From assembly GCA_004123355.1 (NCBI GenBank), contig SCHM01000001.1:5014001-5078000 (forward strand): 64,000 nt of DNA, given 5' to 3'. Shown in pieces: positions 1,277 through 61,625 of this stretch (the first letter of the stretch is position 1; the number at the start of each line of letters is the position of its first letter). The position numbers were made by a program, and so were the translations under genes. The stretch is from Amphirosellinia nigrospora (taxonomy: Eukaryota > Ascomycota > Sordariomycetes > Xylariales > Xylariaceae). The notes beneath the pieces were generated by a model. That model was not told where the DNA came from and did not search any database. It worked only from the letters and a program-made list of their open reading frames with translations.

Positions 1277-3157
1277 ATGGCGCCCTCCCGAATACCGGGA
1301 GCGACGAAGTCCCGTCTACTGCCCTTCAGCCCCTCGACGACGCCCCTCCAGGCGGCGACGTACCTGCTGGGCATCTCGCTCTTCAGCATCTCGTTCCTCG
1401 TCTTCCTCAACAGCGCCGTGAGCTTTGTCATCACGGACCTGCTGGGCGTGAAGAAGGGTGTGGGCGACATCGTCGGCACGCTCGGGTTCGCCGATGAGCT
1501 CGTCGCCCTCGTCGCATGCCCCCTGGGGCCTGCTGAGCGATCGCCTGGGCGTGCGCTGGGTCGCTGTCATCGGCTATACCGTCATCGCTGCGAGCTTGGT
1601 CGTCTTCGTTCAGTGCCGGAACGTCTATCCCGCCTCATCCTCGCGCGCATCATGTTTGCTGTGGGCGCTACGGCTGCTGCCACTATGGTCACTGCTGTAT
1701 TGCCCGTGCTGACGGGCGATGACGACGTGGAGGACAGCAACGACGATGCTGGGATTGGTGCGGGGGTTGTCGGTGGCGAGGAGGCGAGAGCTGAGCTTGA
1801 CGCTGATGCCGGCAACGCGAATGCGAACAACAGGCGAAAAATATCCCATGTCTCCCGTGGTAGTATTGCCGTCAGCATGGAGAGCGACGTCACGATCACC
1901 CCGAGCGACTCTTGTCCGAGAACGAAGGCGCCGCGCGGCGTGGAAGTAGCGCTAGCCAAATTTTCTACCCTTCAGCCCATGGCGATTCCTCCGCAGTAGC
2001 AGCAGCAGACACAAAGGGTAGGAAACCCTCGGCGCTCGCAGGGTTCGTGGGGCTGTTCACGGGCTGCGGCGCACTCGTGGCTCTGATTCTGTTTCTACCA
2101 CTGCCCGCGCATTTCTCCAAGAAAGAAGGCGTCACCCCCCCCGGGCCATTACAGATAGTTTCTACGTCGTGGCCACCGTCGCGCTCGCCGTCGCTATATT
2201 TGTGTTCTTTGGCCTACGCGGGCTCAAAGGCGAGGAGGCTAAGGGCTGGCGGATGCTCCTCGGTCTCAAAGACCGGGACTCTTCATCCACAGCATCCTCC
2301 TCATCCTCTTCGCGAACCCACGCCGCGAAGCCCCTACCCTACCACCACCTCCTAATCTCCTCCTCCGCCTCGGCGCAACGGACCCGCATATTGCTCTAGG
2401 CTATCTCGGCGGCTTCGTCGCGCGTGCCAGCACGGTCGCCATCTCGCTGTTCGTACCACTTTACGTCAACGCGTACTTCATGTCGCACGGCTTCTGCCAG
2501 GGGTCACCCAACGACCCGTCCCCGGACCTCAAGCGCGAGTGTCGCGCCGCCTACGTGCTGGCTGCTACCTTGGGCGGCGCCGCGCAGCTGATCGCCCTGC
2601 TCTGCGCCCCCGTCTTCGGGTACGCCAATGCGCGCCGGTACCGCGGTGTGAATCTCGGCGTCCTTGTCGCCACGTCGCTGGGCGTCGTGGGCTACGTCGT
2701 GTTCCCGCAGCTCGCGAGCCCTGAGTTCAAGGATGTCGACGGACGCGGCGGGTCCGCCGCGGTCTTCCTCGTCGTCGCCCTGCTTGGCGTCAGCCAAATC
2801 GGCGCCATTGTGTGCAGCCTGGGGTCCCTCGGCCGCGGCGTTCTGGGCGAGGATGTAGTCATCGGGTCCGCGCCCGCATCGAATGTGGGCGATTCCGAGG
2901 AGAGCGACGCACTCCTAGGAAACGGGACGAGGGGGAAGGATAGGAGGGTTTCCCGCGTCCAGCTCAAGGGCTCCATCGCCGGCGTCTACTCGTGGTGCGG
3001 CGGCGCTGCCATCCTCCTGCTCACGAAGCTCGGCGGATACCTTTTCGATAAACTGTCGAACGGGGCCCCGTTCTATATGATGGCTATCTTTAATGCCGTT
3101 TTGCTTGTTGCTAGTGTTGGTGTTGATTTGGGGCATATTGTAAAAGAAAGAAGGTAG
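1277..3157 (+). CDS. Major facilitator superfamily transporter, frame broken at five places
   Basis: This is a polytopic membrane carrier of the MFS type, probably 12 membrane segments and about 628 residues once frames are joined; no intron is seen. The N-terminal half has a hydrophobic helix (LLGISLFSISFLVFLNSAVS) and an MFS motif A-like loop (GLLSDRLGVRW, near residue 80). A long acidic, low-complexity cytoplasmic loop separates the two halves. The C-terminal half has several more helices and ends in IVKERR. Frame breaks lie near 1510 (two bases missing), 1631 (CCCC to CCC), 1901 (C5 to C4), 2134-2142 (C9 to C8) and about 2340 (one base). The six missing bases restore a length divisible by three, and no in-frame stop is needed otherwise. 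The substrate is unknown. The gene is visibly more GC-rich than its flanks. A true pseudogene is possible but less likely than sequence error. Confidence 0.8.
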
Positions 3158-4406
3158 GGTTTTGGTTGGGTATATATGTGTATAGTATAGTATAAGTGGC
3201 TTTATATTAAAAGGATTGGGTTTTTATCTATTTAGGGTTTTGGTTATGACGGATCTCTTGTGTCTGTATTCAATCTATAAATGAACTTGGTTCATGTCGC
3301 GTCATTGTTGTAGATATGAATTAGTCATTATAGGTTGTGCAGTGTTAGTCTTGTTGAAGACTCATTCTCGAATCGGTAAGGTATCATCAGTATGTGTATG
3401 GCCTTCGCGATCATTTGGGCTTCTCAACTTCTCACAAACTTTTGGTCACTATTCACGATAAGTTACTAATTTTAAGGTTGTGAGATATGTCTCAATTGGT
3501 ACGAGCACGGTTACAACGAGGAAAAGATCTAGGGCTGGACGTCGGTGCCTAGCATGGAAGATGGCCGGCTGGCGGTTGTTTCCTCGAGATAGTGAGATCG
3601 AGGGGCTCTGTGATCGTCCATGGTGGGCAAAGCTCGTGATAATTGGGTTTGAGGCCTTGCTAATGTATATGTAGATCTCGTGATCCTTCTCTTGTCATAG
3701 CGAACTCTACTGAATATCCTGGAACCTCTAATTAGGCCTATTTAGAAACTAAATTTCTACTATGGTTATGTGTTGGCCACATTGTTAAACTTTCTCGATG
3801 AGATAAAGCCATCTCGCATAGCGAGCCTTGCACATATACTCGCGGAGAAGTAGTGCTAGGAGATAGGCTTCACATTTGCCCTGAACACTATATAGAACTA
3901 GAGAAAAGCATCTTTGATCTGATATCTAGCCGCTAGTAATGATGTTCAAGTCGCGTTTAGTTACTAGTGTAAGAGAGAAAGATCTATGATGACTTATTGA
4001 TAACACATATTGATATAAACTCGTATTGTGAGGAATAAGTCGTAGTATGAATTGTAATTCGCTCGTTGTTTGAGGGTTAAAACCTTCAGCTATTTGGCAG
4101 GCGTAGCTTTGGATGTAGGCATACTATGCAAGGTCAGTTAACTATATCCCCTTATGGACTGATGCATGTTCAGTCTGATTCAAAAGCGTAAGCCAAAGAG
4201 ATACTTTGATGCGATAGGCTGACTATTCCACGTGATTATCTACAAGCCCAAAATGTAACATAACTGAATACCTGGGGCTGAATGCATAACCATGGCTCTA
4301 TAGACGAGTGCACTCTGCCTTGAGAGGTCATCAATCTGTTTCAACTGTAGTATACTATGGTATTTTTGACAATTTCTAAGTAAACTACACGAAGAGTTCT
4401 GCTAGG
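3158..4406. other. AT-rich intergenic region
   Basis: No supported gene. The stretch is A/T-rich with many stops in all frames. A 64-codon open frame at 3480-3674 has no recognisable domain and was not called. Confidence 0.5.
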
Positions 4407-7400
4407 ATGCGACTGTTTCGCCGGAGACGCAGAGCTGGGGCTCAGAGTGACAACATGTCCCAGCCCAACCGGAAAGCCTTCCCTTCAGGCATCAAGGAAC
4501 TCCATTGTCCGCCAGAAGGGAGCACCGTTGAGTAAGTATACGGCTCGTAGCAGAGCAAAACTATTGGTGTTATAAGCATAAATTGATTATGTTGTGTGTT
4601 ATAGTATTGTTTTTATCCACGGCCTCACCGGCGACCGGGAACATACATGGACCGCGAAGAACGCGTCCGAACCTTGGCCCAAGACACTCCTCGCCCCGAA
4701 GATCCCCACCGCACGTATCCTTACTTTCGGCTACGATGCCTACGTTGCCGATTGGAAGAGTGTTGTCTCGCAAAATCGAATTGGGAACCACTCGTCCAAT
4801 CTGCTAACCTCTCTTGCACATTACCGGGAAGAAAGGAAAGGCACCGTGAGTAGGCCGTAAGTTGATATGCCAAATAGTGGCGAAGCATACTGATGCATAC
4901 TGTAGAACGAGCATCCGATTATATTTGTCTGTCATAGTTTGGGTGGATTAGTTTGTAAAGATGTATGACCAGTCATCTAATTAACTTGATCGAGGCTAAA
5001 GGATCTAACTAGGCTCTGAATACGGCGCGAGAGCAAACAGAGAAGCCCTTGAAGCGTATTTTACACTCGGTTCGAGGCATCGTCTTCCTTGGAACACCAC
5101 ATCATGGCTCTGGTCTTGCTACGTGGGCCGAGAAGTTATCCTTGTATATTGGCGTTATCAAGCAGACGAATAAAAAGATCCTCGAGGTCCTCTGCGCGGA
5201 TTCCGAGGTACTTGAACGAGTTCAACGTGGTTTCCACACCATGATTCATGCTCGGAGTGAAGAGAGACTTGAACCGATCAGAATCCGCTGTTTTTATGAG
5301 GAACTGCCTCTTATGACATTCGGCTTTGTGTGTTATAAGGACGTTATTCGGGTTGCACGCGCTTACTTAATATAGGTTGTACCTAAACACTCGGCGATTA
5401 TTCCTGGATACGTCCCCATCGGAATCCATAGCAACCACATGGACATGTGCCGATTCGAAACAGCAGATGACTCGGGGTTCAAATCTATCTATGGGGAACT
5501 TTGCGAGTGGATTAGAGAGATGGATGTAACGGCGAGGTCCCAAGGAGTCACACCTGCCTCTCACACTATAGGTGCATCGCAGAACGCGCTCGTAGGACCA
5601 GATAGAAAGGAGGGCTCCGTGCCGCAGTGTAAGTCGAAATTCTTAGAATAGCTTTACTTACACTAAGAACAATAGTTGTTGTACCGCATCCCTACAATCC
5701 CCAGTTTATCGGTCGCTCAGAGCTCCTTGAACAGCTGAAATCTAAGCTGGGCCACCAAGAACCTCATACACACAACCAAACGCACCATCGAATTGCGCTT
5801 TGTGGTCTCGGCGGTATTGGGTAAAGACGTTCAAACTAATAATTCGGTGATATAATATTGTTCTAATACGTAGTAGAAAAACGCAAATTGCAATTGCTTA
5901 CGTCTTCTGGCTGCATAGCTCGTTTTCGGATATATCGATCTTTTGGGTCCATGCCAGCAATATTGATCGGTTTCGCCAAGCGTATACAGAAATCGCCGAG
6001 AAATGCCAGGCTCCGGGTTACAATGATCCGAAGGTAGATGTGCTGTCATTGTTGAAAAAATGGCTAGAGCAAAAGGATCGGGGTCGCTGGCTTATGGTTA
6101 TTGACAATGCGGATGACGCGCAATTATTCTGCGGCCGGCTGGGCCTACAAATTCCAGTGGTGACACGGACCTCGGACGGTATATTCCCGAATGCGCTCAC
6201 GGCGCCGTTCTTATCACAACTAGAAATAAACAAGTCGGCTTACGGTTGACTAAAGGAAGAGGGATGAGTCTTCTCGAGGTTGAGAAGATGAGCGATGTTG
6301 AGTGTTGCGATCTGCTTCGCACCTCACTTGACAATGGCCTTGTCGGCACGGGAGAATTATCGACACTGGCTTGCCGGCTCGAGCAATTGCCACTTGCACT
6401 CGCGCAGGCATCCGCATTCATTCAAGAGAACAGTATAACCGTCGAGCGCTATCTCGAACTGCTTGACCGGGATGACCAGAGTTTCACCAGTCTGCTTAAT
6501 GAGGAGTTTGCTACAGTAGGGCGAGATTCGGATACACCCCATGCCGTTGCTGCCACCTGGATCCTCTCATTCGAGCGGATCGAACGGCAAAACCCACTCG
6601 CAAGCGAACTTCTTCTACTTATGAGCTTGTTTGACCGGCAAGCTATCCCAATAGAATTTCTTTCCAAGTTTGACCAAGTTTATCACAACAGGCCGCCGAC
6701 AGTGGATTTACAGCTTATCAAGGCACTGGGTGTTCTAAAAGCGCATTCTCTTATAACCGAAGAAACAGATCAAAGCTTAAACCTGCACCGTCTCGTACAG
6801 TTGGTTACGCAAAAATGGCTCGCTACAAAAGGAACTTTGCGTCAGTTTGCAAAGAAAGCTATCTTAACAGTCTCTCACTGTTACCCGTACGGAGAATTTG
6901 AAACCCGGCAAAAGTGTACTGCATACCTTCCGCATGTGCAAGCAGTACTGAAACTTGATGGCGTTAGATCAAAGGATGAGAATATTGCAAGAGCATCGAT
7001 TCTTCACAAGGCTGCTGGCCTTTTTTTCTTTCGGGGCCAGTGGGACCTCGCTGAGAATTTCTTAACGCGAGCGACGGATATACGAAGAGAGGCGTTAGGA
7101 CCAGATCACCACGATACGCTAATTAGCATGAATAACCTGGCATTGATATACCGAGACCAAGGGCGGTGGAAAGAAGCCGAATTACTACAAGTACAAGTTA
7201 TGAAAGCAAAAAGCAACGCTTGGACCAGATCATCCCGATACGCTAATTGGCATAAATAACCTGGCGTTAATATACCAGGACCAAGGGCAGTGGAAAGAAG
7301 CCGAATTACTACAAGTACAAGTTGTGGAAGCAGAAAAAGCAACGCTTGGACCAGATCATCCCCAAACGCTAAATAGCATAGGTAACCTAGCGTCGACGTA

Positions 7401-7806
7401 CCAGGACCAAGGGCGGTGGAAAGAAGCCGAATTACTACAAGTACAAGTTATGGAAGCACAAAAAGCAACGCTTGGACCAGATCATCCCCAAACGCTAAAT
7501 AGCATAGGTAACCTAGCGTCGACGTACCAGGATCAAGGGCGGTGGAAAGAAGCCGAATTACTACAAGTACAAGTTATGGAAGCACGCAAAGCAACGCTTG
7601 GACCAGATCATCCTAATACGCTAATTAGCATGAATAACTTGGCGTATACGTGGAAGTCTCAAGATCGCATCAAAGATGCTATCCAGCTTATGGAAAACTG
7701 CGTCGAAGCACGAGCACGAGTTCTGGGCCAAGATCATCCGGACACAGTTAGTTCTCTCTCCAGATTAAAAAAATGGCGAGCAAAAGAGTCGGCTGCTGTT
7801 CCTTGA
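4407..7806 (+). CDS. NLR-type protein: alpha/beta-hydrolase (SesB-like) - NB-ARC - TPR
   Basis: This is a fungal NOD-like receptor of the class linked to heterokaryon incompatibility and programmed cell death. Seven exons are inferred: 4407-4531, 4605-4845, 4906-4962, 5013-5327, 5376-5628, 5676-5820 and 5877-7806. The product is about 1022 residues. Residues ~40-310 are a SesB/DUF676-type hydrolase: VFIHGLTGD, nucleophile motif CHSLGG (Ser ~133), GTPHHGSG and a late His in IHSNHMDM. NB-ARC follows, with Walker A GLGGIGKT (Lys ~380, split by the sixth intron), Walker B LMVIDNADD, VLITTRNK, LPLALAQ and a terminal HRLVQL motif. The C-terminus is a TPR array. Two frame breaks occur: one base missing near 6135-6140 and two bases near 7206 in the first repeat. 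Together they restore the frame to the stop. Expected role: ligand sensing by TPRs, nucleotide-driven assembly, and output by the hydrolase domain. Confidence 0.85.
7098..7725 (+). repeat. Tandem 126-bp TPR-encoding units
   Basis: The landmark GGACCAGAT recurs at 7098, 7222, 7348, 7474 and 7600, and a diverged copy sits at 7726. Spacing is 124, 126, 126, 126 and 126 bases. Each unit encodes 42 residues of the NB-ARC-associated TPR type (LGPDHP, NLA-YQDQGRWKEAELLQVQV). Adjacent units are nearly identical at the DNA level, synonymous sites included. The first unit is two bases short in its poly-A stretch, which breaks the frame. Confidence 0.95.
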
Positions 7807-9550
7807 AGCCTTCTTGGTGCTGGCTCAATGGTTGACTTGCTATTCGGTCTGATTTGTGGGCTGGTGTTGGCGCTGGTATATCATTAATCTCCTATAGGAG
7901 TTGCAATGCTTTGATTCAAATACACAAGGGGTAGCCGAAAGCAATAGTAGTTTAAGGGTTATTTAATTTCTACTTAGTCGGCCGCCTATACCCATTGCTT
8001 TAAATATATTTGAATAGTCTATCTTAACGTTTTATCATGTGTATATCCAACTAAAGTCAAGCCTAAGTCAAAGTCAAGCTCGTGGCATGAGCGGCGGCGC
8101 GCTTTTGCGAAAGGCTAGGATCAGTGGGCAGGTACTACCACCGTATGGGAAGGAACTGTGTGTACGGACTACATAAGGAAATTCTGGGCGTCCCCCCTGT
8201 AGAAGACCTCCGTCTCTTCTACATATCAATATACTCTGTCAAATCCCTTTTCTGGATCTAGCTGAAACGGCTATCATCTTAGATTCGATCCCGAGTCTGG
8301 GGTAGCATTAGGTAGTCGGACGGGCCGGTCTGGAGGATAGTTCGACTAATACCTAAGTGGTGGGTAACTATACCGCGGTGATGGCTCTAAGACACTGCTA
8401 TCTAGCGGCATGTAGACGGGGGAAATCGTGCTGCTGCGAGTCCAAGGCTTCTAAGTCAGAGAGATGCAGGTAAATGCATAGGAAATGTATTTATGTGATT
8501 GATATATAGCTAGTTTTTCTGTATCTGATCCTAGCTCTTATATACGTTGTCACGTTATAGTCGAACGAAGAGACTTAACGCACTCCTAGACTGATAGTGT
8601 CCTTACAATATATACTCGCTTGGTTAAGCTTGATGCTATAGGCATATTCTTGACATCCCATAAGTGGCTTGTATGAAAAGCCTCAACGACTTGCGCTACT
8701 CTATGAAACCCGAATTGGTGTTGAAACCTGTCTCGGCGAGACTCAGTTACTTGCCTTTTCCCGCAAGTAATTAGCACCCCGCTCCCTACATTTATCCATA
8801 AACACTATAGTCGGACTCTAATTGCGCACATTGAGCTTATACAAAGTAAATAAAGAAAATAAGAAGGGCTGCGATGAAAGGCCCTGAAAGCCGGCTAGCA
8901 TCTAGCTTTCCAGGAAGTTTCTCCTGTTAGTTCACCAAGACTTTTTCAGTACGCTAGCCCCCCTGTGTGAGCTTTGAGGTCGTCGCTAACTTAGTAGGAT
9001 TAGAAACGGCCTCAATCCGAGATTGTGGGTGGTCTCTGGTAGTTGGGGTCAGCCGGGGACCGAGGTGACTGTTGTCATGACTAAGTATTTTCGTTACACA
9101 CGTCGAGACAGCGATGTCAGACTACCAAGTAATGGCGACCACCACACAGGGTGCCATGCTATTCTCTGTTTGCATTAGGTAGGCATGCCTATATAAGAAT
9201 CGTGGACAACTTGAGCTGATTAGAAATTGTGGATTTGAAGTTACTTTTCTACTCTTTCTATCGTACAGGAAAGTGTCTGTTTAGACCTAATTGAACACAC
9301 ACACACCCCTACTCCTCCCCCTTTTCCTCCCCCCTAAAACACCACTCCTGCCTCATCCACCACACACGGCTTCTTTCTAGTTATTATGTCTATCAAATGT
9401 TTAGTCATGCCGTCATTACTTTATGATGTTAGGATACCGCCGACTAAGAACTCGTATGAGCTCGTCTCTCGCATCGTGATAGCAGGGAAAAAGGTGGCAT
9501 TCCCAAGTCCAGTCCGTCGCCGTCCGCTTATCAGCTCCGGCGACTCGTCA
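7807..9550. other. Intergenic region without recognisable genes
   Basis: No open frame here has a recognisable domain or coding-like composition. A CA run followed by a pyrimidine-rich tract lies at about 9294-9360. Confidence 0.5.
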
Positions 9551-12003: not shown

Positions 12004-13103
12004 TTATACAGATTTAAGTTGTAGAAGTGCTTGGATTGCCTCGCGCTCTTGAGCATCGGAGGAAGCGGCCAAGGCGTCCAAGTCGATGTTATCGAGTTTA
12101 GGCTCTCGAAGCATGCGTGTGTTTGTTGGAAAGGATCGGTAGCCTCCATTATTATATACATGATGAGAGGGATAGCCTGCACCGCGGCGGGCCTCAGCTG
12201 GGCTAGAGTAAGAACCAGCTCGCAGAGCAGCGGCTCCAACAGCTCCCCAGTCTTCATCATCTGTCTCGTCTTCAGAGTTATCGTTCATGTCGATGTCAGC
12301 AGCGTCGGGGGCCTCGGAACAGGAGGCTGAGCCGGGCCTATCGAGGGAGTCGAGCGACATCTTATCCGCCTCATGTTCCAGGATGCTTGCATCTCGACCA
12401 TCGTGGGAAAAGGAGGCCGAGTTGCCGTTACTAACGGTGCGAGCATTGAGTCGTGGCCGGCTCGCGTTCCAGGACACGTTTCTGCCGATGGGAATGCTGG
12501 CTGGATAGGGACCTCGACGGCGCTCGCGGGATAGCGATCGAACAGCGGCAGGGCGTACAGTTTGGCCCCTTCGCTTTGCATCCCACCGGCCCCAACCAAC
12601 TTTCTCAAACTCGACTCCTCCACTCAGGCCACTGCCTTCCGCACCGTGTCCTTGCCCACGCTGTAATGCCGAAACCACCAGCCTTCGTGCTTTGTTTGGA
12701 GCGATGCGGCAAAGCCGGGTACCGATGTTGTCAGGTAACCCATAATATGACGGATGGCCAGAGGCCCGTGGTTTAGGAGGATCTCTGGAAGGTGAAATTT
12801 GGCAAGCAGAGTGGCGGTGATGTCTCCATGGGCCTCGAAGGACGACGATGTGGCCGGAACGGATTCGGAGTCATCGTGGAGGTCGAGATCCGACTCGACA
12901 GAGCTCAGTCTAGCCCTCTGCAGCTGAGCCTTGAGTCCGTGCGGAGGGAGCGCCGGCGAGATAGAATTAGGGGGAGTCGGAAGAGGGTGAGCGCCTGTCA
13001 CAGGGCCATTCCTGGCGGCTGCTACACCAGTTAAGGTGTCTCGGCCGGCCTGGGAAGCCGTAGGGATATCGCGCGCAGCAGTAGCAGATGCCATGGTTGC
13101 CAT
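12004..13103 (-). CDS. STB3: Stb3-like Sin3-binding protein, one frame break
   Basis: The protein matches the Stb3/putative Sin3-binding family. In yeast, Stb3 binds the Sin3-Rpd3 histone deacetylase complex and rRNA-processing-element promoters, repressing ribosome-biogenesis genes when growth signalling is low. The conserved core is visible as ITATLLAKFHLPEILLNHGP, AIRHIMGYLTTSVPGF, then NKARRLVVSALQ and VEFEKVGWGRWDAKRRG. The rest is Ser/Asp-rich and probably disordered, with an acidic patch (NSEDETDDEDWG). The core spans a one-base frame break near 12710, best explained as TTTT read as TTT on the coding strand. With it, the gene is one exon of 366 residues. The start at 13103 is the first of two nearby ATGs. 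Confidence 0.85.
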
Positions 13104-16100: not shown

Positions 16101-16328
16101 GACCTCCCGATGATTGGTATTACGTCTCCCTAAGGACGCCTCAAGAATGCGAGCCGCTTAAGTCGCAGAGCCACTTTATATAATGCTAGCTAATGGAGTA
16201 TGGGACTTTTGTGGTACGACGCCGAGGACTATCCGTGGAGTTGGAGTGACGACTTCCTATCGCGCGTGAAGCGTGCTGTAGTAATTGGTTAAGAAGACCA
16301 CATAAGTCGTGTAAGCGATTCGCAAAGT
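13104..16328. other. Long intergenic region
   Basis: More than 3 kb without a supportable gene. Small open frames (up to about 91 codons) occur on both strands with no domains. Just upstream of 13103 is the presumed promoter and 5' leader of the Stb3-like gene. A short tandem repeat lies near 13680-13724. Confidence 0.45.
13680..13724. repeat. Short GGATTGG/GGGATT tandem repeat
   Basis: Imperfect copies of GGATTGGAC pass into perfect GGGATT hexamers. The tract is intergenic, and no function is visible. Confidence 0.8.
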
Positions 16329-19368: not shown

Positions 19369-20600
19369 ATGGCTCTCCCAGCTATCAAGTCTCTCGGGGA
19401 CTGCGCAGATTATTCCAAGGTTGTTGAGCCGTTTCTCCCCCAGCTGTACGAGCTCCCTTCCAATGTTCTTAACACGGCAAGAAACGGCGAGTCGCTACTC
19501 AACCTGTACATGAACACAAATCCCCTCGTCTCAGGCTTTGCTTTTTCCATATTTCTAGGTTGCATTTTTTGGGTTGCCTCTGAGGTCAATCGTAATTATT
19601 CCCAGGTGGACCGGTTTTGGAGTTTGCTGCCTGCTTTCTACAATGCTCACTTTGCAGCCTGGACGCACCTTAATGACCTACCGAGCCAAAGGGTAGACTT
19701 GATTCTGTTTTGGAGTGTTATCTGGAGCGTATGTCCACTGCATCTAATTCGCCATTTCGTCTGCAGCCTGACACTGACCTTCTCAAGGCTCGGTTGACAT
19801 TCAATTACTGGCGCAAAGGCGGCTATGAGATTGGCTCCGAAGACTACAGATGGTTTGTATAGCTCTTATATATTGTTCTGTCTCGTAAAGGTTCTAATTA
19901 CTCGGAAGGGAAATCATTCGAGGTTACTGCCACCAGCGATTTTTTCATTTTCAACGCAACCTTCATCTCCTTCATACAAAGCATTTTACTTTTTCTTCTT
20001 GCTGCGCCGACCTACGTGGTCTTGCTAGCCTCAAATATCGAGCCGAAAGTGGGAACCGCCGATTTGCTCTTTGCCGGTACGGAACTGGCTCTTGTCATAT
20101 CGGAGTGGTTTAGCGATCAGCAGCAATGGGTTTGTTCCTTCAACTATTCAAGATGGTGAAATGGCATTAACACCATTTACAGATTTTCAACTTGCGAAGA
20201 AACAGTACCAAAAGACAGCTAAGGTGCCACGGGTTCTGGGTATACCTTGGAAGATCTTAACCGGGGTTTCATTACATCAGGTCTTTGGGCATACTGCAGG
20301 CACCCGAATTTCACGGCTGAGCAAACAATTTGGTTCGTACTTTATCAATGGAGCTGCTACGCTGGTAATGTCCCATACAGCTGGGCGGGCTCGGGTCCCT
20401 TGTTCCTCGTTATGTTATTCCAAGGATCAACGTGGCTCACTGAGCTGATTACGGCGGGGAAATACACCGAGTATAAAGTTTATCAAAAACAGGTGGGTGT
20501 CTTTCTGCCAAGCTTGCGGCCTTACAAGGCACCGGAAGCCACCCCAAAGATCATTCGGACCAGCGACCTTGCCAAGCGAGAGAAGGCGAAGCAAAGATAG
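19369..20600 (+). CDS. DUF1295 / steroid 5-alpha-reductase-like membrane enzyme, four frame breaks
   Basis: This is a multi-pass membrane protein of the DUF1295 family, related to 5-alpha-reductase and isoprenylcysteine methyltransferase folds. Exons are 19369-19728, 19788-19852, 19909-20129 and 20183-20600, giving about 355 residues. Diagnostic parts are QVDRFWSLLP, RLTFNYWRKGGY, the run of helices around ATFISFIQSILLFLLAAPTY, and the C-terminal cofactor-type motif GLWAYCRHPNFTAEQ. Single bases are missing near 19926 (G), 19938 (T7 to T6), 20183 (A) and 20228 (G4 to G3). They bring exons 2-3 and exon 4 back to whole codons. Family members are predicted NAD(P)H-dependent reductases of lipids or sterols in the ER, but the substrate of the fungal clade is not known. 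Confidence 0.8.
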
Positions 20601-23569: not shown

Positions 23570-26008
23570 ATGGCGGACAAGGAAGCTACCGTCTATATCC
23601 TCGACCTGGGGTCGTCAATGGCCGACTGTCACAATGGTCGCACCGAGTCGGATCTGGACTGGAGTATGCGTTATGTATGGGACAAGATTTCCACCACTGT
23701 TGCAGCCTCGCGGAAGACTTGGAATGTAGGTGTCGTGGGAGTGAGAACAGATGAGACCGACAATCCACTAGGAGAGGATGAGGGTGGCGAGGGATACGAG
23801 CATATATCGGTTCTTCAAGAGCTCGGCCCAATGACGATGAGCAGTCTCGGAGCCCTCCGCGATCATGTGAAGACTAGCGACACTCAGACTGGTGATTGCA
23901 TCTCCGCCATTGTTTTGGCCATTGAGATGATAGAGAAACTCACCAAAAAACTGAAGTACAACCGCAGAATCATTCTTGTCACAGACGGCGAGGCATCCAT
24001 GGACAGTAGTGACATCGACGATATAGCGGGAAAGATAAAGAGGTCCAGTATACAGCTTACAGTATTGTCAGTTTTCTGATGCTTCCCAGCATAGCATTCA
24101 TGCTAATTTCATATATAGAGGTGTGGACTTCGACGACGCTGAGTTCGGCTTTAAGGAAGAGGATAAATCGAGCACCAAGGAACACAACGAAAAGATTTTA
24201 AGAGATCTTGTTGAGAAATGCGATGGTTTGTATGGAAGTATGGCTGAAGCGGTCGCTGAACTTGAGACCCCAAGAGTCAAGCCCGTCAAACCCTACAAAA
24301 CATACGACGGCCTACTCACCCTCGGAGACCCTAACGTGCATGAGGATGCTATGAGCATTAATGTCGAGCGGTACTTCAAAACACATAAGGCAGCCGTTCC
24401 ACCCGCCAGCAGGGTTGTGCTAAAAACCGACTCCAATGGTGATGCTTCCGGTGTTGCAGAAACTACTGACGGTGATGAGATGCAAGGTGTTGAACCCACG
24501 CCAAGCTTCTCGGCAGTGAAAGATGCTCGAACTTATAAAGTCAATGATCCTAGTGTTGCCGGTGGAAAACGAGATGTTGATTTCGCTGAATTAGCCAAAG
24601 GATATGAATACGGAAGGACAGCAGTGCACATTAGTGAGTCGGAATTCAACATCACCAAGATTGAAACCACCAAGAGCTTCAGTATTGTAGGCTTCATTTA
24701 TCAAGAGAAGGTGCGAAATCAAGTCCCAACAGAGAAGCTTGTACTAACCCTCCAGTATGAGCCATTCTTGAATATGGGTGAGACGTGCATGACAATAGCC
24801 CAGAAGTTCAATGACGCGGCGGCCTTAAAATTATCGTCGCTCATTCACTCGCTCCACGAGTTGGAGTCTTATGCTGTCGCACGCATTGTGACTAAGGACG
24901 GCAAAGACCCTACTCTTCTCCTTTTGGCACCTCACCTTGAACCTGACTTCGAATGTCTCTACGATGTGCCGCTTCCATTCGCGGAAGATGTCAGGAATTA
25001 TCCTTTTCCGCCTCTCGACAAAATCATTACTGTGCAAGGGAATACGATTACTGAAAACCATCGAAACCTCCCTTCTCAGGAACTCCAAGAAGCCATGAAC
25101 GATTATGTAGACGCCATGGATATATCTTCCTGGGAACGGGACGATGAAGGGTGGGTCCATTACTTCCAGAAGTCCGTCTACATAGAGCTAAAGTTGATAG
25201 TAACCACACAATGGAATACGCTCCTGTTGAAGACCTCTTCAGTCCATCGCTTCACCGCATCAACCAAGTTATTCGGCATCGCGCAACGTATCCAAATCAA
25301 CCAGTTCCTCCAATCCCAGCTATTCTTCTTAAATATGCAAATCCGCCTGAAGACCTGGCAGCAAAAGCCAAGTCGGATCTTGAAGATCTTATAGACAAAG
25401 CTAGCGTTAAAAAAGGTAATAACAACCTAATACTAGATCATCCCAATAATAATGACTAATATCCAATAGTACCCCCAAGACAACGGGTAAGAAGGATAAA
25501 GGCGAGAAACCCAAACCGATATCGGGTCTTGATATCGACGCCCTACTTAAACAACCTGAGAACAAGCGAGTAAAGATCAACCCGAGAAGGCAATATCCGA
25601 TTTCAAACAGAAATTAGACGCTGCCAATGATCATGCCGAAACGGAGGATGCCATGAAGCAAATGGGTGCCATTATCCGCGATATCGTTACCAAAAGTTTC
25701 GGCGATCAAGACTACGATCGTGCTATTGAACATATCGGCGTTATGAGAGAAGGAGCGATCGGCTTTGAGTACCACGACTTATTCAATTCATTCATAAAGG
25801 ACTTCAAAAATCGCCTCTTATCGGGTGAATTTGATGGTGATCGTAGGTTCTGTGGTGGAAAATCAAGCGTGTTAAGCTAGGCTTAATCGATAACACGGCA
25901 GCTGAGAATTCCAAGGTAACAGCAGAAGAGGCAGCTGAGGTGAGGACCCTATTTGCATGCCATACTTAAGCATGATGCTAATACGGCCTGTAGTTCCTTA
26001 AGAAGTAA
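23570..26008 (+). CDS. KU80: Ku80 subunit of the Ku DNA end-binding heterodimer
   Basis: Ku80 pairs with Ku70, binds DNA double-strand ends and starts non-homologous end joining; it also acts at telomeres. Five exons are inferred: 23570-24066, 24119-25150, 25201-25415, 25470-25939 and 25994-26008, for about 743 residues. The N-terminal vWA-like domain starts MADKEATVYILDLGSSM and contains RRIILVTDGEASMDSSD. The Ku core includes KSFSIVGFI and MGETCMTIAQ. The linker MEYAPVEDLFSPSLHRINQ leads to the C-terminal arm and a helical C-terminal domain (MKQMGAIIRDIV, YDRAIEHIGVMREGA, LLSGEFDGDRR, VLWWKIKRVKLGLID), ending EEAAEFLKK. The last exon codes only four residues. Single bases are missing near 25473 (C6 to C5), 25582 (C4 to C3) and 25848 (G3 to G2). 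In Neurospora the orthologue is mus-52. Confidence 0.93.
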
Positions 26009-27286: not shown

Positions 27287-29294
27287 ATGGCACCTGACGC
27301 GCGCCCACATTGGGATCCTAAGAATAGCGATGATGATATTAACATCGCGATGATCCCAAAAATGGAAGCCCTGATCCACCCCCTTTGTAAGTAAAACAAT
27401 TGCTATATGTCATAACTAGCATCTAACTGACGACTATTGCTCAGCTTCATTATCTGTGTCGGCGCAGGAAGAGAGTACTGAAAGCCAAACCACGGTGCCG
27501 CCGCCTACAATCCCCTCGGCCGCCAATCCCTTTGCGCCATTGCGTTTGGTATTTGGTGAAGTATCCGAGAGGGATTCTACCTTCGTGCCTTTCAAGCTTA
27601 TGCGGGAATACCCTCACATGTATGTAGGCGGGTTGAACCGGGGACCAGTATGTAGGTTGCAAGGGGTGTATGTTATACATTCGTTAACACCAACTGCAGG
27701 CTACCGAGTTTTTCAAGGCGACGTTACTCAGGGATCGCGTCTGGGATTTGTAGGTGACGCGAACCCAAACCACACCATGCACGAGCTGAGGAGATGCTTA
27801 CTCGCGACTGTAGTTTCTCTCTCAGTGACCCTACCGCGATGAGACATTCGCTATTGCTTGTCCCCACCGTTCAATTCGATAAATATCTGACTATCGCGAA
27901 CCAAGAGCTTGATGTACAATTCTCCATCCCTCGAGGCAGAGCTGGAAGAGGATTCGCCCTTACATTTGGAGAATATGATACACCACGCCCGCGTTACCTC
28001 GGGCGAATTAATAGCGCCGCCGCCCTCGAGGCACTCAAGGCGCGGGCACACGAGATCCCGGCTGATGACCTTCACCTTCTTACTCCTGCTTGTTATCAGA
28101 TGTACATCGATAAAATAGATAAGATATATGACTCGATGAAGGCAAATAACAAAAAGAAAAACCAAGACGTGGCCATACAGAAAAGGATAAAGAGACAGAA
28201 AGATAGTGGCCGCATGCTCAAACGCGTTCAGCGATACCTTGGGCTTCGTCCAGCTGCCTCGCATGTGTCAAACAGTAGTGAGTCTTTCTTACTTCTCTCG
28301 ATGGCGAAGCTTACAAAAATGATAGGTGACCAAGGCGTGGTCAGTACGAATTGGAATGCCTTGAAACCCCCACCGTTCAAAGCCAGAGAATCCGTTCGCT
28401 TTGTTTGTGTCGATGTTGAGGCATACGAGAAAGACACTAGACTTGTCACTGAGGTTGGGCTGGCTGTATTAGACACTGATGATTCCATGGATATATGCCC
28501 TGGCGAGAGAGGTGAAAACTGGTTCCCTATTATCCAAGCTCACCACTTCAGAGTCAAGGAGCGCAGCTACATGGTCAATTCCGAATTTGTCAAAGGCTGT
28601 CCCGAAGCCTTCGATTTTGGGTAACATCATATTCCCATCAAAAGTGTGGAATTTTGCTAATGAATAATAGCGAAAGTGAGATGGTTTCCATTAAGGACAT
28701 CAACAAGATCGTCGGCAAAATCCTTGGCGACAAGGAATCTGAAGACCAAAGGCCTGTGATTATTGTCGGGCATGATATCGGACAGGATCTCAATTACCTC
28801 CTTAAAATCGGGTATAACCCCTGGCGTGCCCCGCAGATTTTCGATGAAGTCGACACCAAAACCATGTTTCAACGCATACAACAAAGTCCGAATGGTCGTG
28901 GACTAGCAACGGTGTGTGCTGAATTGGGCATTTCTGGGTGCCATTATCACAATGCCGGGAATGATGCGGTGTATACCCTCCGGGCAATGATTGCTATAGC
29001 CATCAAGCGAACAATTGAAGGCTCGGGCGGGGAAAGAGATACATCTACATCAATGTAAGCACTAAAGACATGTCGTGGGAAACAATACGATGAAAGCTGG
29101 CTGATGGTACCGGTAGTGACGAATGGTCAGACGGAGATGTGGACGACGGCGGGCGTCCACAGAGGTCCTCACCACCGGCCGAGAAAGAACGCAACAACAG
29201 TAAGCTAGAGTTTCCAGTGTTGTATTCTGACCCTATTAACACAGCATCTAGATGGATACCAAAAGAGTCAATGGTGAGGCGAGAGCTTTTGTAA
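27287..29294 (+). CDS. Gfd2/YDR514C-like DEDDh RNase H-fold protein
   Basis: Six exons are inferred: 27287-27386, 27445-27647, 27700-27749, 27814-28620, 28671-29054 and 29117-29294. They give 573 residues with no frame break. Residues ~105-290 form a region found in fungal Gfd2-like proteins, with VQFDKYLTIANQELDVQF and a basic stretch KKKNQDVAIQKRIKRQKD. The C-terminal domain has an exonuclease-type RNase H fold: FVCVDVEAYE (Asp ~318, Glu ~320), GHDIGQDLNYL (Asp ~426) and HNAGNDAVYTLRAM (His ~480, Asp ~485). All DEDDh acidic and His positions are present, so nuclease activity is plausible. Yeast Gfd2 was linked genetically to Dbp5 and mRNA export. The last exon is acidic and low-complexity; an alternative intron near 29203 would shorten the C-terminus, so the end is less certain. 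Confidence 0.85.
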
Positions 29295-29849: not shown

Positions 29850-30245
29850 CTAGCTAGCGCTCTTCTCGAGAAATTCTTTCGCCTCGTTGACTTTAGTTGC
29901 AAGGTAGGGGCTGCCACCTCGATCGGGGTGGTTAAGAAGCATTAGAGTTCGGTGGGCTTTCCGGACCTTGTCCTTGGTAATAGCACGCTCGCTGTTGGTG
30001 TTTGTTAGTGTATACGTTGCATAGTCTTCCTCTAACCCCTCTGGATGAAAAAGCGGGCTGCTCGTACTTGAGGGATAATATTAGCGATGCTTCTTTCCTG
30101 GTCATCCGCTGTTCGAAGCCCCCTTGAAGAAGGCCTTGCCCATTGCGCCGACACCACCGCGCGAGCGCCGCCAGGCTGTCAGACCGGCACGTCCTAAGAA
30201 TGCTGCAACAGCAGCGCCACCTCCAATTGCAAGTAGAGAGACCAT
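29850..30245 (-). CDS. PAM18: Mitochondrial import motor J-protein Pam18/Tim14
   Basis: Pam18 is the inner-membrane J-protein that stimulates mitochondrial Hsp70 in the presequence translocase-associated motor, in partnership with Pam16 and Tim44. Exons are 30068-30245 and 29850-29991, split by a 76-bp intron. The product is about 106 residues. An N-terminal membrane helix ([19 protein letters not shown]) is followed by [15 protein letters not shown] and a short J domain with [24 protein letters not shown], the HPD motif in [20 protein letters not shown], and a final EFLEKSAS. One G is missing near 30122 (G6 to G5) between FFKG and the J domain. Without it the frame stops a few codons later. 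As this protein is essential in yeast, the break is probably a sequence error. Confidence 0.92.
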
Positions 30246-53488: not shown

Positions 53489-56400
53489 ATGCCCGGTTCG
53501 TCAACCCACGATCCGTCTCCGACGTCGGACTCTTCTCTTCCCCGAGCCCGCCTCGCCAGAAACGAAAACAGAAGCTTACACGGAGCAATTCTCCAGGTTC
53601 TAAGAAGAAGGACAAAAATGCCAAAGATAGTGGTGGAGTTGTTGCGGCGGTGACGAAGCATAGGGCCAAGCTTGGGTATGTCCGCAGCCCCCTCTAGCCC
53701 CTATTCTAGTTGTTGGTCGCTAGCAGGGTCTCCTATTCTATAGGGGCCGGAACCTTACCGCTCCGTGCTTGATTCCAGTGTCTTTCAGCCATGGCCTATA
53801 CACGATAACGTCTGACATTGATTTTCTATAGTAATGGCAGTTCCGGCAAGGACGTCACGCCGCCCGATGAGTCACTCGTATTCCAGTCTCCAGAACTAGA
53901 GCCTACCGCGCCAGCCTCAATCCCGACCAACGGCAATCCTTCGGTATCACCCCTATTAAATGCCTTGTCAGCCACGTCGGCTTCTGCAAGCACGGCTCTC
54001 AGTGCCAATGACTGGTCGAGGGCGACTGGGCCTCTTGCTGGTTCTCCATCTAACCTGATCAGCATCATGGGAGACTCGCCGCCCACACAGCCGTCATCAT
54101 ATGAGGATTCAAGGGGTTTGCCGTATGCTTGGAGTTCTCATCAGCAGCAACAACAGCAGCAGCAACAGTGGCGGCATCATGGTAGTAACATTCCTTATTC
54201 TGCTTCCCCGCCTACTGGAGGTAGACGGCCTTTGAGTTATCAAATGGATCATTACCCGGCCAGTGAATTTCGCTCTCAAATGTCTACGCCTTCTAATGCA
54301 CGGCGAAGTTCTATGCACTCGCCTTTCCCGCCACCCCGACTTGGGGCCAATCCGCCTCTACCCCACCAACCTCAAGCTCACTTTTATGGTGCCCCAGACA
54401 TTGATTTCGACATACACCACAAGACAGGCTTAAAAGCTGGAGAAAGAGGTTTCTATTTTGGCTTTGATACACTCCCTCGGTTGGAAAACGGTCAGACGTC
54501 TGGTAACGACCACGTCGTTCTCGCAGGCTATGAAGGTGGTATGGACATATACAGCGTTAATAAGAGGGGGGTAGAGCCGCTCGCTACTCTAAAAGGGTTA
54601 CGAGGTGGCGTTTATAACGCGAGGATATTACCGTGGAACGGCACATCGGACCCGTTTGGAATATTCCCCTTAGTTGCTGTCGTGGTCCATGGGCCTGTGC
54701 CGCCGGCTAATGCCCCCGACATTGCGTTAGAATCGGCCGTGGACAATACCTCAAGCCCCGGTTAGAAGGTATCAATACTCCACAATCGGACACCAACCAG
54801 CGCCAAATAAATGTTGGGAAGGGCGTGCCAATTATTGAGGCTTACCAGACTTCAGTCGAGGTATACTCTTTGGCGACTAACCAACTAATTGATGTGTTGT
54901 TGCAAGCACCCAAAATACCATTCAAGGCATCGGTAGCGAGCCCGGTCTTTAGGAGCCCTCCCCCTGGTGCATTTCAAGTCTACGCCGAAGATAGAACCAT
55001 AGTGGTGGCTTCAGGTGCAACAGGGGAATGCTGGGTTTATCGACAGGTGATGTATGAACAAGATCCCGGCTATGGGTTCAACTGTGTTGGGAAGCTATGG
55101 ACAAGTTTGCAACAAAGCGTCAAGGGTGATTCAACACCAGAAGATGAAACCGCATCGACTCCGGTACCTTCACGAAAACGGCCACACGCGCCGATTCTTG
55201 CAATCAGCGGGAGATGGTTAGCCTACTGTCCACCGCCCTCTTCGTCTCAAATTGCCTTGAATGGCTCGATCCCAGTACCCGTGGAGGGGAAAGCACCAGG
55301 GTTGTCGACAGTCACTTCTCCTGTGCTGCCAATCGAGAGTTCGGAGGTTGAACAACCCATGATCGATGGTGTCATGAACCGGATTATGAGGGAGACGACA
55401 CAGGAATTCATACAAGGAGCGCGTTGGGTTGGTAAGCAGAGTATGCAGCTGTGGAACAACTATTGGAAACCTGGACAGCAACCGCCCGCTAGACAATCGA
55501 CTGTGGGTTCACCACCTTGGGGCCAAGGGTATGCCGGACGGTCAGAGGCTGCACAATTTCCACCAACCTATGGGGTCTCTGGTCAAGCTGTTACGAAGGA
55601 ACCGGGACTCATATCGATCATTGATATACACAGCCTAATGAGTTCTACTACTATCCATCCCACCACAACGTTTAAGCCGCCGCTTGGGTGTAGCTTTTTG
55701 TCCTTTTCTCCCACAGGATTGTCTCTGTTTACTGCAAGCATTAGGGGGGATGTGCAAACAGTCTGGGATCTGATGCGTATTCAGCATACAAAGTCATCCT
55801 CCTTACAGAACTCGCAGCCAAATAACGGACATGCAACCCGAGTCCGACAGGTTGCTCAGTTCTCGCGTATGACTGTCGCTCGCATTGTGGACATTGCATG
55901 GGCCAGACCAAACGGTGAAAGAGCTGCCATGGTCACGGAGAGGGGCACTGTACATATGTTAGATATGCCACCGAGCGCTTACACGTGGCCACCTCCACGT
56001 AGGCGCGTTGCCGCACCGGAGACGACTCGCGGGGGGTCTGAAAATGCCTCCTCGGCTGTTTCCATAGCTTCGAATGTTCTGAGCTCTGCGTACGGGGCCA
56101 CTCGACCGCTGCTTAACACGCATCGTCGGAGCACCTCTAATTCGCAAGGCACGTCGACTATAATGGACCACGCTAGTTATGGGGGGAAGGTCCTTGCCGC
56201 AGGAATTAGCCATTCTTTAGGCAATGCCGGAACCGCCATAAACCATCTGCGTCACACTGGCGAGAATCGGGTGAGCTTGCCTTTGAGAAACATGTTGGCT
56301 GGACCGTCATGTTCTACGTGGATCACAGGCAGGAAGCACCACACCTTGTTTGTGGTGGGTGATGGTCAGGTTAGAATGTTTCCAAGCAAAAGCCGTAGGC

Positions 56401-57086
56401 CAAGCGTTCGGAAAGACCGGCCACGCAATGCCCGTGGAACCAGATACAACGATTTCAAGTTACGGGACCTACCAAACGACCTGATTGCCCCATCAATCAA
56501 GCAGATGATAGATCCAATTGAAGATCTCGATCTTTCAAATCCAGACCACGACGGTGGCAATACATTAGTTCTTCATCCCCGACCACGCCTGACAGAACTA
56601 GACCGTAGTCCCGAGGCAGCGATACCCCAGGCGGAGATAGAGTCAAACGCGCCGTACCAACCGTTTCATACCGATAGGCGGGTAAGCCTTCATTTATGCA
56701 AAGACGAAAGTAGTGAGAATGGCCGGTCCTCTGTTATACGGCACGCACAGTCGGCGACTCTGGATGATATACAAATGCCCTACAAGCGTCGTGACAAAAA
56801 ATCTGTCACAAGCCAAGCATGGGCCTTCGGACAACCCATTAGCACCGTCAAATTGGATCTCGGCTTGCCAATCATCATAGACGAGGATGTCAGTAATAGT
56901 ATTGATGATCACCGAGCCTTGCCTGTATCAGCTATGGAACGAGTCTTGCAGGTTGGTGAGAATGACGAGCAGATTGTTGTCACAACGCGGCGCCGGCGAG
57001 GTGGTGGCCGGGCAGTCGGTGGCGATGAAGACGGATTCTTTGAAGACGATTGTGAAGTGCTCGATTTTGCTGACCAGCGAGTATGA
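53489..57086 (+). CDS. BCAS3-like WD40 protein
   Basis: Two exons (53489-53675 and 53832-57086) encode about 1147 residues. The N-terminal ~280 residues are Ser/Pro-rich with nine consecutive glutamines (54142-54168). WD40-type blades begin at GFYFGFDTLPRLENG and VVLAGYEGGMDIYSVNKRG, continuing with VEVYSLATNQLIDVLL and CSFLSFSPTGLSLFTASIRG, then DVQTVWDLMRIQH. A BCAS3-type segment follows EQPMIDGVMNRIM (TTQEFIQGARWVGKQSMQLW). The C-terminus is disordered and ends FADQRV. Animal BCAS3 binds phosphoinositides with PHAF1 and is recruited to autophagosome formation sites; a related role here is inference. Single bases are missing near 53541 (C5 to C4) and 54750 (C3 to C2), which together restore the frame. 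Confidence 0.82.
54142..54168 (+). repeat. CAG/CAA glutamine-codon tract
   Basis: Nine consecutive Gln codons (mixed CAG and CAA) lie in the disordered N-terminal part of the BCAS3-like protein. The mixed codons argue against recent slippage. Confidence 0.95.
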
Positions 57087-57712
57087 CACAAATAGTGTGA
57101 CAACCTGAGTTTTGTGTTTTTTGTTACAACTGACTTGAGTTTGCCCTTGTAACGTCACTTGATCTGAAGGTCAAAGTCCAGTAGCCCTACTCAAGTGCGG
57201 ATCGCTACAACGGCTTCGTCGTCCTTTCACCTACTGATTACACAATTAGTCTGGAGTTGGAGTAATGGTGTCGATTCCAACGCTACTCACCGACATTTGA
57301 CATGGCACATTATGCATGGTGTCGCTCGCATAATGAGCTAATTAGTCACAATACAATAGACACATTTGAAGTCAATCGTTGTTTACTTCTAGACTCGTGA
57401 AATTCGCCCTAACTGGCATAGGCATTATTTTGCTATCCTGATAATGCAGCGTCAAGATCTTTGGCAGCAAAATTGGAGATGTGAAGACAATGTCTTGTAG
57501 ATGAATTTATTTTGCCAATATATTAATTTTTTTGAGTACTTTCACGCCACCGGATGAACCGCCTCACAGTCTCTGAGGAGTTTTCCCATTACGTGGATGG
57601 CGAAGAGAGTCTATCTGCTATCATTTCCCCGTTTTATGAGCCAGTCAGTCAGCCCCCGAATGAGTCTGTCTCTCTATCTCACTTCCTTTCCCTCATCTCC
57701 CCGCTTTCTCGT
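57087..57712. other. Intergenic region between convergent genes
   Basis: This holds the 3' flanks of the BCAS3-like gene and DPM2. No gene is seen. Confidence 0.5.
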
Positions 57713-58241
57713 CTACGCCTTCTTCTTAGCGGCGACGGCCTTGGCCTTGGCCGCCTTCTTCCTGTTGCTCCGAATCATGACGACGCTCAGGAAGGAGCCG
57801 ACGACGGCGGAGCCCAGCAGGATCAGGATAACGGGTATGCGGATGGCCCACTCGCGCGGGGGAAAGATGCTGTGGAGAGGGTGGTCGAGGTCGACGAAGG
57901 GCTGGTTGGCTCTTGGTCAGTAAAGTTCCGCAACGCCTTAGGTGGAGGCGAGAAGGAAGGGGTGAGAGAGGGGGGGAGTTGGTATAGGCCGGCTTAGTTT
58001 GGTTTGTTACGTACCATTGCCAACGTCCAGATCGAGTAGTAGAGGAAGACGACGGTGGCGGCCACGAGCATGGCGAGGCCGACGAGAGTCCCGAGCTAAT
58101 GTGTGAGAGATCCGTGTTAGCTCCATGATGGCAAATTCGGTCTTTATGTAGACTGAGTGTGTAGTGTGTATGGTGATGCTGGACTTGTGATCGATAGATA
58201 GATAGGTCCAAGCATGACAGGTTAGATGCGCCACGTACCAT
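57713..58241 (-). CDS. DPM2: DPM2, regulatory subunit of dolichol-phosphate mannose synthase
   Basis: DPM2 is a small ER membrane protein that stabilises the catalytic Dpm1 subunit (with Dpm3) and so supports N-glycosylation, O-mannosylation and GPI anchors. Exons are 58239-58241 (only the ATG), 58015-58095 and 57713-57901, giving 90 residues with no frame break. The first membrane span reads LGTLVGLAMLVAATVVFLYY. The conserved luminal loop PFVDLDHPLH follows at the third exon. The second span is WAIRIPVILILLGSAVVGSF, ending in a basic tail MIRSNRKKAAKAKA with a KKKA-type C-terminus suited to ER retention. Splice sites are clean (donors GTACGT, acceptors TTAG and CCAG). The length agrees with the family. 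Confidence 0.9.
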
Positions 58242-58813
58242 TGTCGATTGAGTTCTGGTGAGGAATAGAATATGGTAAAGAGAATAATGGTGTTAAAACC
58301 TAGATAAGTTGAGTCGGATACTCGTTGAGGTTGCGATAGTCTAGATTATGGCTCGGGTTTCCTGTCGTGTGTTGTTGAGATGTGTTGCTGGCGGTTACCT
58401 ACTTGAGGCCAATGGGGTTGAGTGACGCTAATAAAAATGTCTAATTGACACGATACCTGCCAGACGCGACGGGGCCGGACGCTGAGGGGCAGGGGGGAGC
58501 TAACCTGTGTGATAAGTGCCTGCGTAGTGGGTCGTGACCTGTCGATCAGATGTGGGGCTAAGCAAAGTCTTGGCAGTCACCACGCCAATCACGCTAGAGC
58601 CGCAAGAGTGTTCTCCACTATATTTTACCAGCCTTGTTCAACATTCAGAACGCTGTGTTGCCTACCCCAAACCTTCAACTACAAACCGCGAACTGCTTCA
58701 CCAACGATCCAACCCCAATCGCAAATAAAGAAGCATCATCCCCCGTGTTATGAGCGTAATTAACACCGCGCACTAAGAGATCATAATGGCTGAGGTTCGC
58801 GACCACATCTCAT
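58242..58813. promoter_or_regulatory. Divergent promoter between DPM2 and CWC22
   Basis: About 570 bases separate the starts. The C/A-rich part at 58640-58745 is probably the CWC22 leader. An alternative ATG at 58786 ([11 protein letters not shown]) lies out of frame with the chosen start unless two bases are missing. Confidence 0.4.
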
Positions 58814-61625
58814 ATGCGCGAGCCATCGCCAAATGCCCAGCCCATCTCCCGCTCACCTCGGTCACCTCGCCGCGATGAACGCCCTCGGCATCGAGATGGA
58901 GGCGCCGACAAGTACAGACCTTCACGCGACCACGGACGCGGCCGATCCGGCGACAGAGATGGAGGCCCTCGCCAGCGCACCCCGCCGAAGCTCCCCACGG
59001 AGGAAGAGAAGCAAGCCGCGGCCAAAGCCGAGTACGAGAAGCTACTCAACATGCGATCAGGCGGCGTCTACATACCGCCTGCTAGATTGCGGGCGCTCCA
59101 GGCCCAAATCACCGAAAGACCTCGAAAGAATACCAGCGTTTAGCTTGGGATGCGCTGAAGAAATCTATCAACGGTACCCTTCCCTCCCACCAACCAGCCT
59201 TTATATATACTTACGTTGCCGTAGGGTTGATCAATAAAGTCAATACTGCCAACATCAAGCACATTGTGCCCGAGCTATTCCAAGAGAACCTCATCAGAGG
59301 CAGAGGTAAGATTTCCGACGTTCAGACAATCTCGCTTCTATCTATTCCAACACGCTCTCCTCCACACCCTTGCGAACTCTATAAATCCCACGTTCGGGAT
59401 AGCCGTAACCCCCCAAGTACTAACTTTGGCTTTCAGGGTTGTTTTGTCGTAGTAGTATAATGAAGGCTCAGGCCTCCTCCTTGCCTTTCACACCAGTCCT
59501 AGCCGCGATGGTCGCCATTGTGAACACCAAATACCTGGTGTGGGAGAACTTTTATCAAAACGACTAGTCATGCAATTCAGGAAGTCATTCCGGCGAAACG
59601 ATCGAGCTGTTGCGGGTTCTTCCACGACTTTTCTAGCACATCTCGCAAACCAGCAGGTGATTCACGAGATGGTTGTAGCGCAGATTCTTCTTTTGGTAAG
59701 CATTCTTAGAACCGTTTTCTTCTTGTTCTGGCAAGATGGTGTCCAGAAGCTCCCGAACCCTTCTCAAATTAATTAGTGATAACTAACTCAAAGTGTTACA
59801 GCTTCTACAAAAGCCCACGGATGACAGTGTTGAAATCGCTGTCGGTCTGATGAAGGCAGTCGGCCAGCATTTGGAGGAGATGAGCTCGCCTATAGCGCGA
59901 ATTATTTTCGATCAATTCAGGTCAATTTTGCATGAGGCTGATATCGACAAAAGAACCCAATATAGTAAGTAATTCTCAGAATACCCTCATAATTGTACCC
60001 AAATGGCTGATATGGTGTTATAGTGATTGAGGTGTTATTTCAAGTGCGTAAGGATGGATATAAAGACGATCCAGCCATCAAAGAGGAGCTCGATCTCGTC
60101 GAGGAAGAGGATCAAATTACACATCGGTAAGCTTTTAGTCTTTTTGGAATTGACTGATTACCTGTACACTAACATGATGCAAAGCATTGAATTAGATGCA
60201 AACCTAGATGTTGAGGACGGACTGAACATCTTCAAGTTCGACCCAAACTGGCAAGAAAACGAGGACGCCTACAAGCAGCTCCGCGCTGAAATCCTCGGCG
60301 AGGGTAGCGACGATGAGGACGATGAAGATGAAAGCTCAGAAGAGGAAGAAGATGAGGAAGAGAAGGCTGTAGAAATTAAAGATCAGTCCAATACTGATCT
60401 CGTCAACCTCAGGAAAACAATTTACCTGACGATTATGTCGTCTATGGACCCGGAGGAAAGCGTACATAAGCTTCTAAAAATCAACTTACCAGCCGGCCAG
60501 GAGCAAGAGCTGCCATCCATGGTTGTGGAATGTTGTGCACAGGACAAGGTTTTCACGAAATTTTTCGGGATCATCGGGGAACGTCTAGCTAAGCTCAATA
60601 GGCTATGGACAGATCTGTTCGAGCAGGCTTTCCAGGACAAGTACCAAACTATCCACCGCCACGACACGAACCAATTAAGAAACATCGCCAGGTTTTTTGG
60701 CCATTTATTTGGATCGGACGCTATCCCCTGGCACGCTCTATCAGTCATTCACCTAAATGAAGACGAGACGACTTCCGCTAGCCGAATATTCATCAAAATT
60801 CTATTTCAAGAAATATCTGAAGAACTGGGAATGCCAAAGCTACAAGCTCGCATGAGAGACGAGACAATGCAGCCCAGTTTCGAAGGTCTCTTTCCTCGTG
60901 ACAATGCTCGCAATATCCGTTTCTCGATCAACTACTTCACAAGCATTGGAATGGGTGCACTTACCGAAGAAATGCGAGAGTACCTGGCGAACATGCCTAA
61001 GCCAGCGCTCCCTGCACCGGTCGCGGAAGACGCAGATTCAGACTCTGTGTCCAGTTATTCGTCCTATACTGGGTCATCGTACTCATCACGATCCCGGTCA
61101 AAGACTCCACCACGTCGAGGCCGGTCATATTCTCGAACACCACCGAGAAACACGCGGCCAAGATCGTATAGCCGAAGCATGTCTGGTTCCCGGTCTCGCT
61201 CCTACGGCTCATCACGCAGCTCTCCACGGCGTCGACAGGACTCATATACGCGAAGCCCGCCTCGGCGCGCCAGACCCCAACGGCCCAGTCGAAGCATTTC
61301 TCGCTCCCGTTCGCGGTCTCGGTCATACAGTTCCTCGAGAAGTCCACCGCCACGAGCCAGACGAAATTCTAGCTCCCCGAGATATAGATCCCGCAGTCCG
61401 CTTCCTCGAGACACCGCTAGACCGCGACCTACGAGTCGAGGCCGCAGTTACACACGGTCTATGTCACGCTCGCGGTCACGGTCATTCACACCATCGCGGA
61501 GCCGCAGCCGTACTCCTACCCGCAACGACCGAAGTCCGACACCTAGGCGCACTCAGCCAAAGCGAGATTCATCGCATTCCATCAGCCCACCTCGAAAGAG
61601 GACAAAGTACAATAATCGCGCTTAG
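58814..61625 (+). CDS. CWC22: Pre-mRNA splicing factor CWC22
   Basis: CWC22 joins the spliceosome around activation, is needed for Prp2-driven remodelling, and in animals loads eIF4A3 of the exon junction complex. Six exons: 58814-59173, 59225-59305, 59437-59695, 59802-59964, 60024-60126 and 60185-61625, about 802 residues. The N-terminus is Arg/Ser/Pro-rich. [19 protein letters not shown] leads to the MIF4G domain ([50 protein letters not shown]). An acidic linker ([18 protein letters not shown]) separates it from the MA3 domain ([48 protein letters not shown]). The C-terminus is a long RS domain ([15 protein letters not shown] repeats). Single bases are missing near 59115 (A4 to A3) and 59532 (TT to T), which together restore the frame. 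An upstream start at 58786 is possible. Confidence 0.9.

Follow-up and report, generated by a model that had tools for sequence, protein, structure and literature searches.

Deletion-type frame breaks are present in the window, the whole stretch of 64,000 nucleotides analyzed here, but they are not special to it. The window spans positions 5014001-5078000 of the 13.8 Mb contig C1, part of an assembly of 48.1 Mb and 11 contigs, and its gene content is what we take to be that of a filamentous ascomycete. We interpret the breaks, with a probability of roughly 97%, as consensus errors that persisted in a long-read assembly for want of sufficient correction. Two findings favor assembly error, namely that losses of this kind affect other contigs as well and that they turn up in untranslated RNA genes. 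The breaks are almost certainly an artefact of the sequence record, amounting to a data-quality warning rather than new biology.

A preliminary description of the window had likewise preferred assembly error over slippage of the ribosome or RNA polymerase. This preference is supported by the other contigs, by the untranslated 5S and rDNA genes and by the sites without runs, so that the interpretation was right in substance, although its count of broken genes and its emphasis on homopolymers were too strong.

Anchored frame jumps in window genes

To locate frame breaks, the three frames of the gene strands were searched separately against Pfam and PDB sequences, with stops written as X. A jump was regarded as anchored when one protein domain continued in another frame with overlapping DNA, such that an intron could not fit. 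On the gene strands scanned (most, not all, of those in the window), homology anchored intron-free jumps at four places in three genes. The Stb3 domain on the reverse strand is split at 12696-12708, with profile positions 1-42 and 39-83 lying in two frames. On the forward strand, the C-terminal (Ku_PK_bind) domain of Ku80 changes frame at 25847-25850, where the longest nearby run has two bases, and the splicing factor gene CWC22 does so twice, at 59122-59128 and 59528-59534. All four jumps are one base short modulo 3; by profile arithmetic the value is exactly -1 in three of them and +2, i.e. -1 modulo 3, in Ku80. None of the four sites has a run longer than three bases.

Frameshifts had been proposed in about 16 of the 22 window genes, a count that we could not reproduce on the strands scanned, where most of the listed genes had no match in a second frame. 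The MFS and NLR genes were matched in Pfam and PDB searches in one frame only, and nothing informative was matched in the BCAS3-like, TMEM205-like, bactofilin and membrane-protein stretches. The accompanying argument that exons and missing bases add up to a multiple of three in every gene carries no weight as evidence, since the missing bases had been inferred with that sum in view.

Five homopolymer runs had been named as sites of loss, and all have the lengths given for them. In the MFS transporter gene, the C8 run lies at 2135-2142 on the forward strand, and a codon hidden Markov model (HMM) placed a one-base loss at 2144, two bases past the run. Also on the forward strand is the T6 run of the DUF1295 gene (19940-19945); one match reads in a single frame across this run, which does not support a jump there, while the uninterrupted stretch matches from 19956 only, so that the evidence for a jump is mixed. 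In Ku80, the C5 run at 25472-25476 (forward strand) falls in the stretch that separates the Ku match from the Ku_PK_bind match. The five-base run at 30119-30123, read as C on the forward and G on the reverse strand, belongs to a Pam18-like gene on the reverse strand, for which a J-domain match was obtained in one frame. The C4 run at 53540-53543 on the forward strand lies at a locus with no Pfam match.

The HMM allowed introns and gave equal priors to loss and gain. Within the window, its final model called six losses and four gains; of the latter, two are doubtful calls in the RS-rich tail of CWC22. Two of the losses fall in the MFS gene, including the one at 2144, and another, at 59116, is near the first of the CWC22 junctions. 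Over 61 sequences, the last training round gave 15 losses and 8 gains, with approximately 65 kb of 250 kb called coding. Because the coding signal was weak and introns absorbed frame changes, these counts were dropped as evidence, and the model, too weak for counting, was used solely to back the MFS site and the first of the CWC22 sites. The homopolymer run-length spectrum of the window was also set aside: it was near random expectation and, with no related control genome, proves nothing.

Frame jumps across the genome

A whole-genome search with HSP70, Cpn60/TCP-1, actin and myosin head profiles identified 23 intron-free jumps at 15 of 35 loci on six contigs (C1, C4, C5, C6, C7 and C8), a count that leaves out 17 adjacent pairs not contiguous in the profile and 14 pairs with room for an intron. 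Seventeen of the jumps were exactly one base short and two exactly two bases short, none was exactly one base long, and four were ambiguous by multiples of three. The breaks are therefore spread over the genome and affect conserved and required genes. Five of ten Cpn60/TCP-1 loci and four of ten actin-family loci are broken. Eukaryotes need eight TCP-1 subunits and a mitochondrial Cpn60, and the ten Cpn60/TCP-1 loci found here presumably include no spare set.

Four further junctions were found among P450 matches, all one base short modulo 3; these pairs were picked from the table by eye and stand outside the main count. The sugar-transporter family showed no intron-free split in 11 matches, for which 9 of 272 candidates were scored, and 20 of the 35 loci in the four main families were also without an intron-free jump.

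Runs of at least five bases were present at 5 of the 23 coding sites, compared with about 1.6 in random coding zones of the window (p = 0.02), and runs of at least four at eight sites (p = 0.16). The remaining 15 sites had runs of three or fewer. Together with the four anchored window sites, these show that the description of almost every jump as lying at a run was too strong, and that homopolymers account for only part of the losses.

Ordinary introns, or non-conserved linkers, could be mistaken for frameshifts, and this holds for some of the frame changes in the window. Three frame changes in CWC22 coincide with GT...AG introns on the forward strand (59306-59436, 59696-59801 and 59965-60023), with splice sites judged by eye. 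The same holds for a DEDDh_C gene that had not been listed, in which a GT...AG intron of 50 bases with a CTAAT branch site, likewise identified by eye, lies at 28621-28670. The frame changes of TOP3, DUF1295 and RLP24 leave room for introns as well. As a full explanation, introns are nevertheless refuted because 27 junctions, the 23 genome-wide and the four in the window, have no room for one, and we regard this reading as very improbable.

The intron at 28621-28670 is very short and splits the DEDDh_C domain in a way that mimics a frameshift.

Length variation in untranslated genes

RNA genes that are never translated served as a control. The 5S rRNA matches number 33 and are dispersed over seven contigs (C1, C4, C5, C6, C7, C9 and C10); 30 copies were aligned and three low-scoring copies left out. 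Of the 23 copies in which a run of five C is pure, 10 have it shortened by one base, and some copies that are otherwise identical along the gene differ by that one base. Counting columns within three longer gaps (2, 4 and 5 bases), shortening was seen in 4 of 41 copy-runs of length four, 5 of 79 of length three, none of 407 of length two and 8 of 1853 single bases. The sole insertion was one of two bases in one copy. Run-length dependence is thus clear in the 5S genes (10/23 at the C5 run versus 0/407 at runs of two) and weak at the 23 coding sites. The bias is one of single-base loss in general, stronger at the 5S C5 run, and not purely a homopolymer effect.

The 5S copies also fall into several sequence subtypes, which are separated by many substitutions and perhaps represent real families.

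Three rDNA copies were compared and showed no substitutions in 2659 and 1752 aligned bases. Their differences consist of G/C run lengths and one four-base gap, the latter in the copy next to a contig edge; a long gap is also present next to masked sequence (N). Among the 58 tRNA matches listed, the 30 that were read, which are the best-scoring loci and contain few long runs, were nearly free of indels, with one copy one base shorter than its twin.

The missing base of this tRNA twin pair lies outside any run, which fits a general single-base loss.

The rDNA and ITS of the assembly are, in our judgment, Xylariales-like in appearance. The three 5.8S genes listed on contig C10, at 104, 43832 and 58339, have spacings of 43.7 and 14.5 kb, a pattern resembling that of an rDNA array whose units measure about 14.5 kb. 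On the reverse strand near 43.8 kb of the same contig, the 18S gene carries, ahead of its 3' end, intron-like insertions that show repeated motifs; from their appearance, we take these 18S insertions to be group I intron-like.

Origin of the frame breaks

The defect in the untranslated genes bears directly on whether the DNA might be correct and the reading frames restored by recoding, with the ribosome or RNA polymerase slipping on runs. Conserved genes do jump frame without stop-codon decay, and runs of at least five bases at 5 of the 23 sites are compatible with slippage. A slippery run would be expected at each site, however, and with no run longer than three bases at 15 of the 23 genome-wide sites and all four window sites, there is no homopolymer to slip on; nor did inspection by eye reveal a common motif around the 23 sites. 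Frameshifting should, moreover, stay within translated genes. Ribosomal slippage is ruled out as a general cause because untranslated 5S and rDNA genes, in near-identical copies, vary in the same manner, and we consider recoding highly unlikely.

A second possibility is that the losses are real mutations, accumulated one base at a time in a mutator strain deficient in mismatch repair, or in a genome undergoing decay. Mutator spectra are run-length dependent, and the 5S pattern resembles them in this respect. Such a history would, however, leave half of the Cpn60/TCP-1 loci and 40% of the actin-family loci broken in a living fungus. It also sits poorly with the balance of zero exact one-base gains against 19 exact losses and with rDNA copies that lack substitutions. 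We judge real mutation to be as improbable as recoding. Less probable still is that nuclear genes are truly short of single bases and are restored by genome-wide insertional RNA editing that also acts on 5S rRNA, since rDNA and 5S copies that are otherwise identical disagree with one another, which argues strongly against it.

Assembly error, in turn, has to accommodate several observations that point the other way: the HMM also called gains, the tRNAs are nearly clean, the sugar-transporter family gave no split, and 20 of the 35 loci are unbroken. The link to runs at coding sites is weaker than a pure homopolymer model of such error predicts. In the explanation that we propose, a long-read consensus left uncorrected, or insufficiently corrected, with accurate reads has dropped single bases, sometimes two, at places scattered widely over the genome. 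Loss becomes more likely as runs lengthen, most clearly at the 5S C5 run, but is also seen where runs measure only one to three bases. Such error accounts for the spread over contigs, the direction of the changes, the damage to required genes, the variation among 5S and rDNA copies and the effect of run length. In the organism itself the genes are presumably intact. Both the sequencing platform and the absence of short-read correction are inferred.

Comparison with other fungal assemblies

Short-indel damage in nanopore-only fungal assemblies is described in PMC7500977 (Drechmeria coniospora) and PMC9453082 (filamentous ascomycetes). The assemblies resemble the present one in that short indels break conserved genes while contiguity is high. 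Their indels are mostly in homopolymers, whereas many of the losses observed here lie outside long runs. According to PMC7500977, run lengths were corrected by short reads, and polishing added more insertions than deletions. This is the reverse of the balance found here, where losses dominate. PMC9453082 reports, for three genes at above 50x coverage, no indels outside runs. Low coverage or an older pipeline may perhaps lie behind the present assembly, although this is a guess.

Rosellinia necatrix, a species of Xylariales, offers a further comparison through its low-BUSCO nanopore assemblies. In PMC10796067, nine nanopore assemblies of this species at 35-52x have BUSCO scores of 68.2-82.5%, and an improved assembly with more data reaches 97%. 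In our reading, indels probably underlie the low scores.

Errors of this kind would mislead gene counts, pseudogene claims, analyses of 5S copy variation and recoding searches in this genome. Given an intron-free break at 15 of 35 loci in four conserved families, many gene models are likely to be truncated or to contain false introns. Split profile matches without room for an intron, combined with untranslated repeated genes as a control, can separate assembly error from recoding without recourse to reads.

Contig ends and repeats

Telomere arrays were considered as a run-length control and dropped, as the opening 6 kb of the 11 contigs contained no array of at least four units; one third of one contig is masked. 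At the start of contigs C1-C8, the G+C content over 6 kb is only 8-22%; such low values without telomere repeats are, we assume, what would be expected after repeat-induced point mutation. Within the window, near-identical tandem TPR repeats with TPR_10/TPR_12 matches are located at 7080-7680, at the end of the NLR-like gene.
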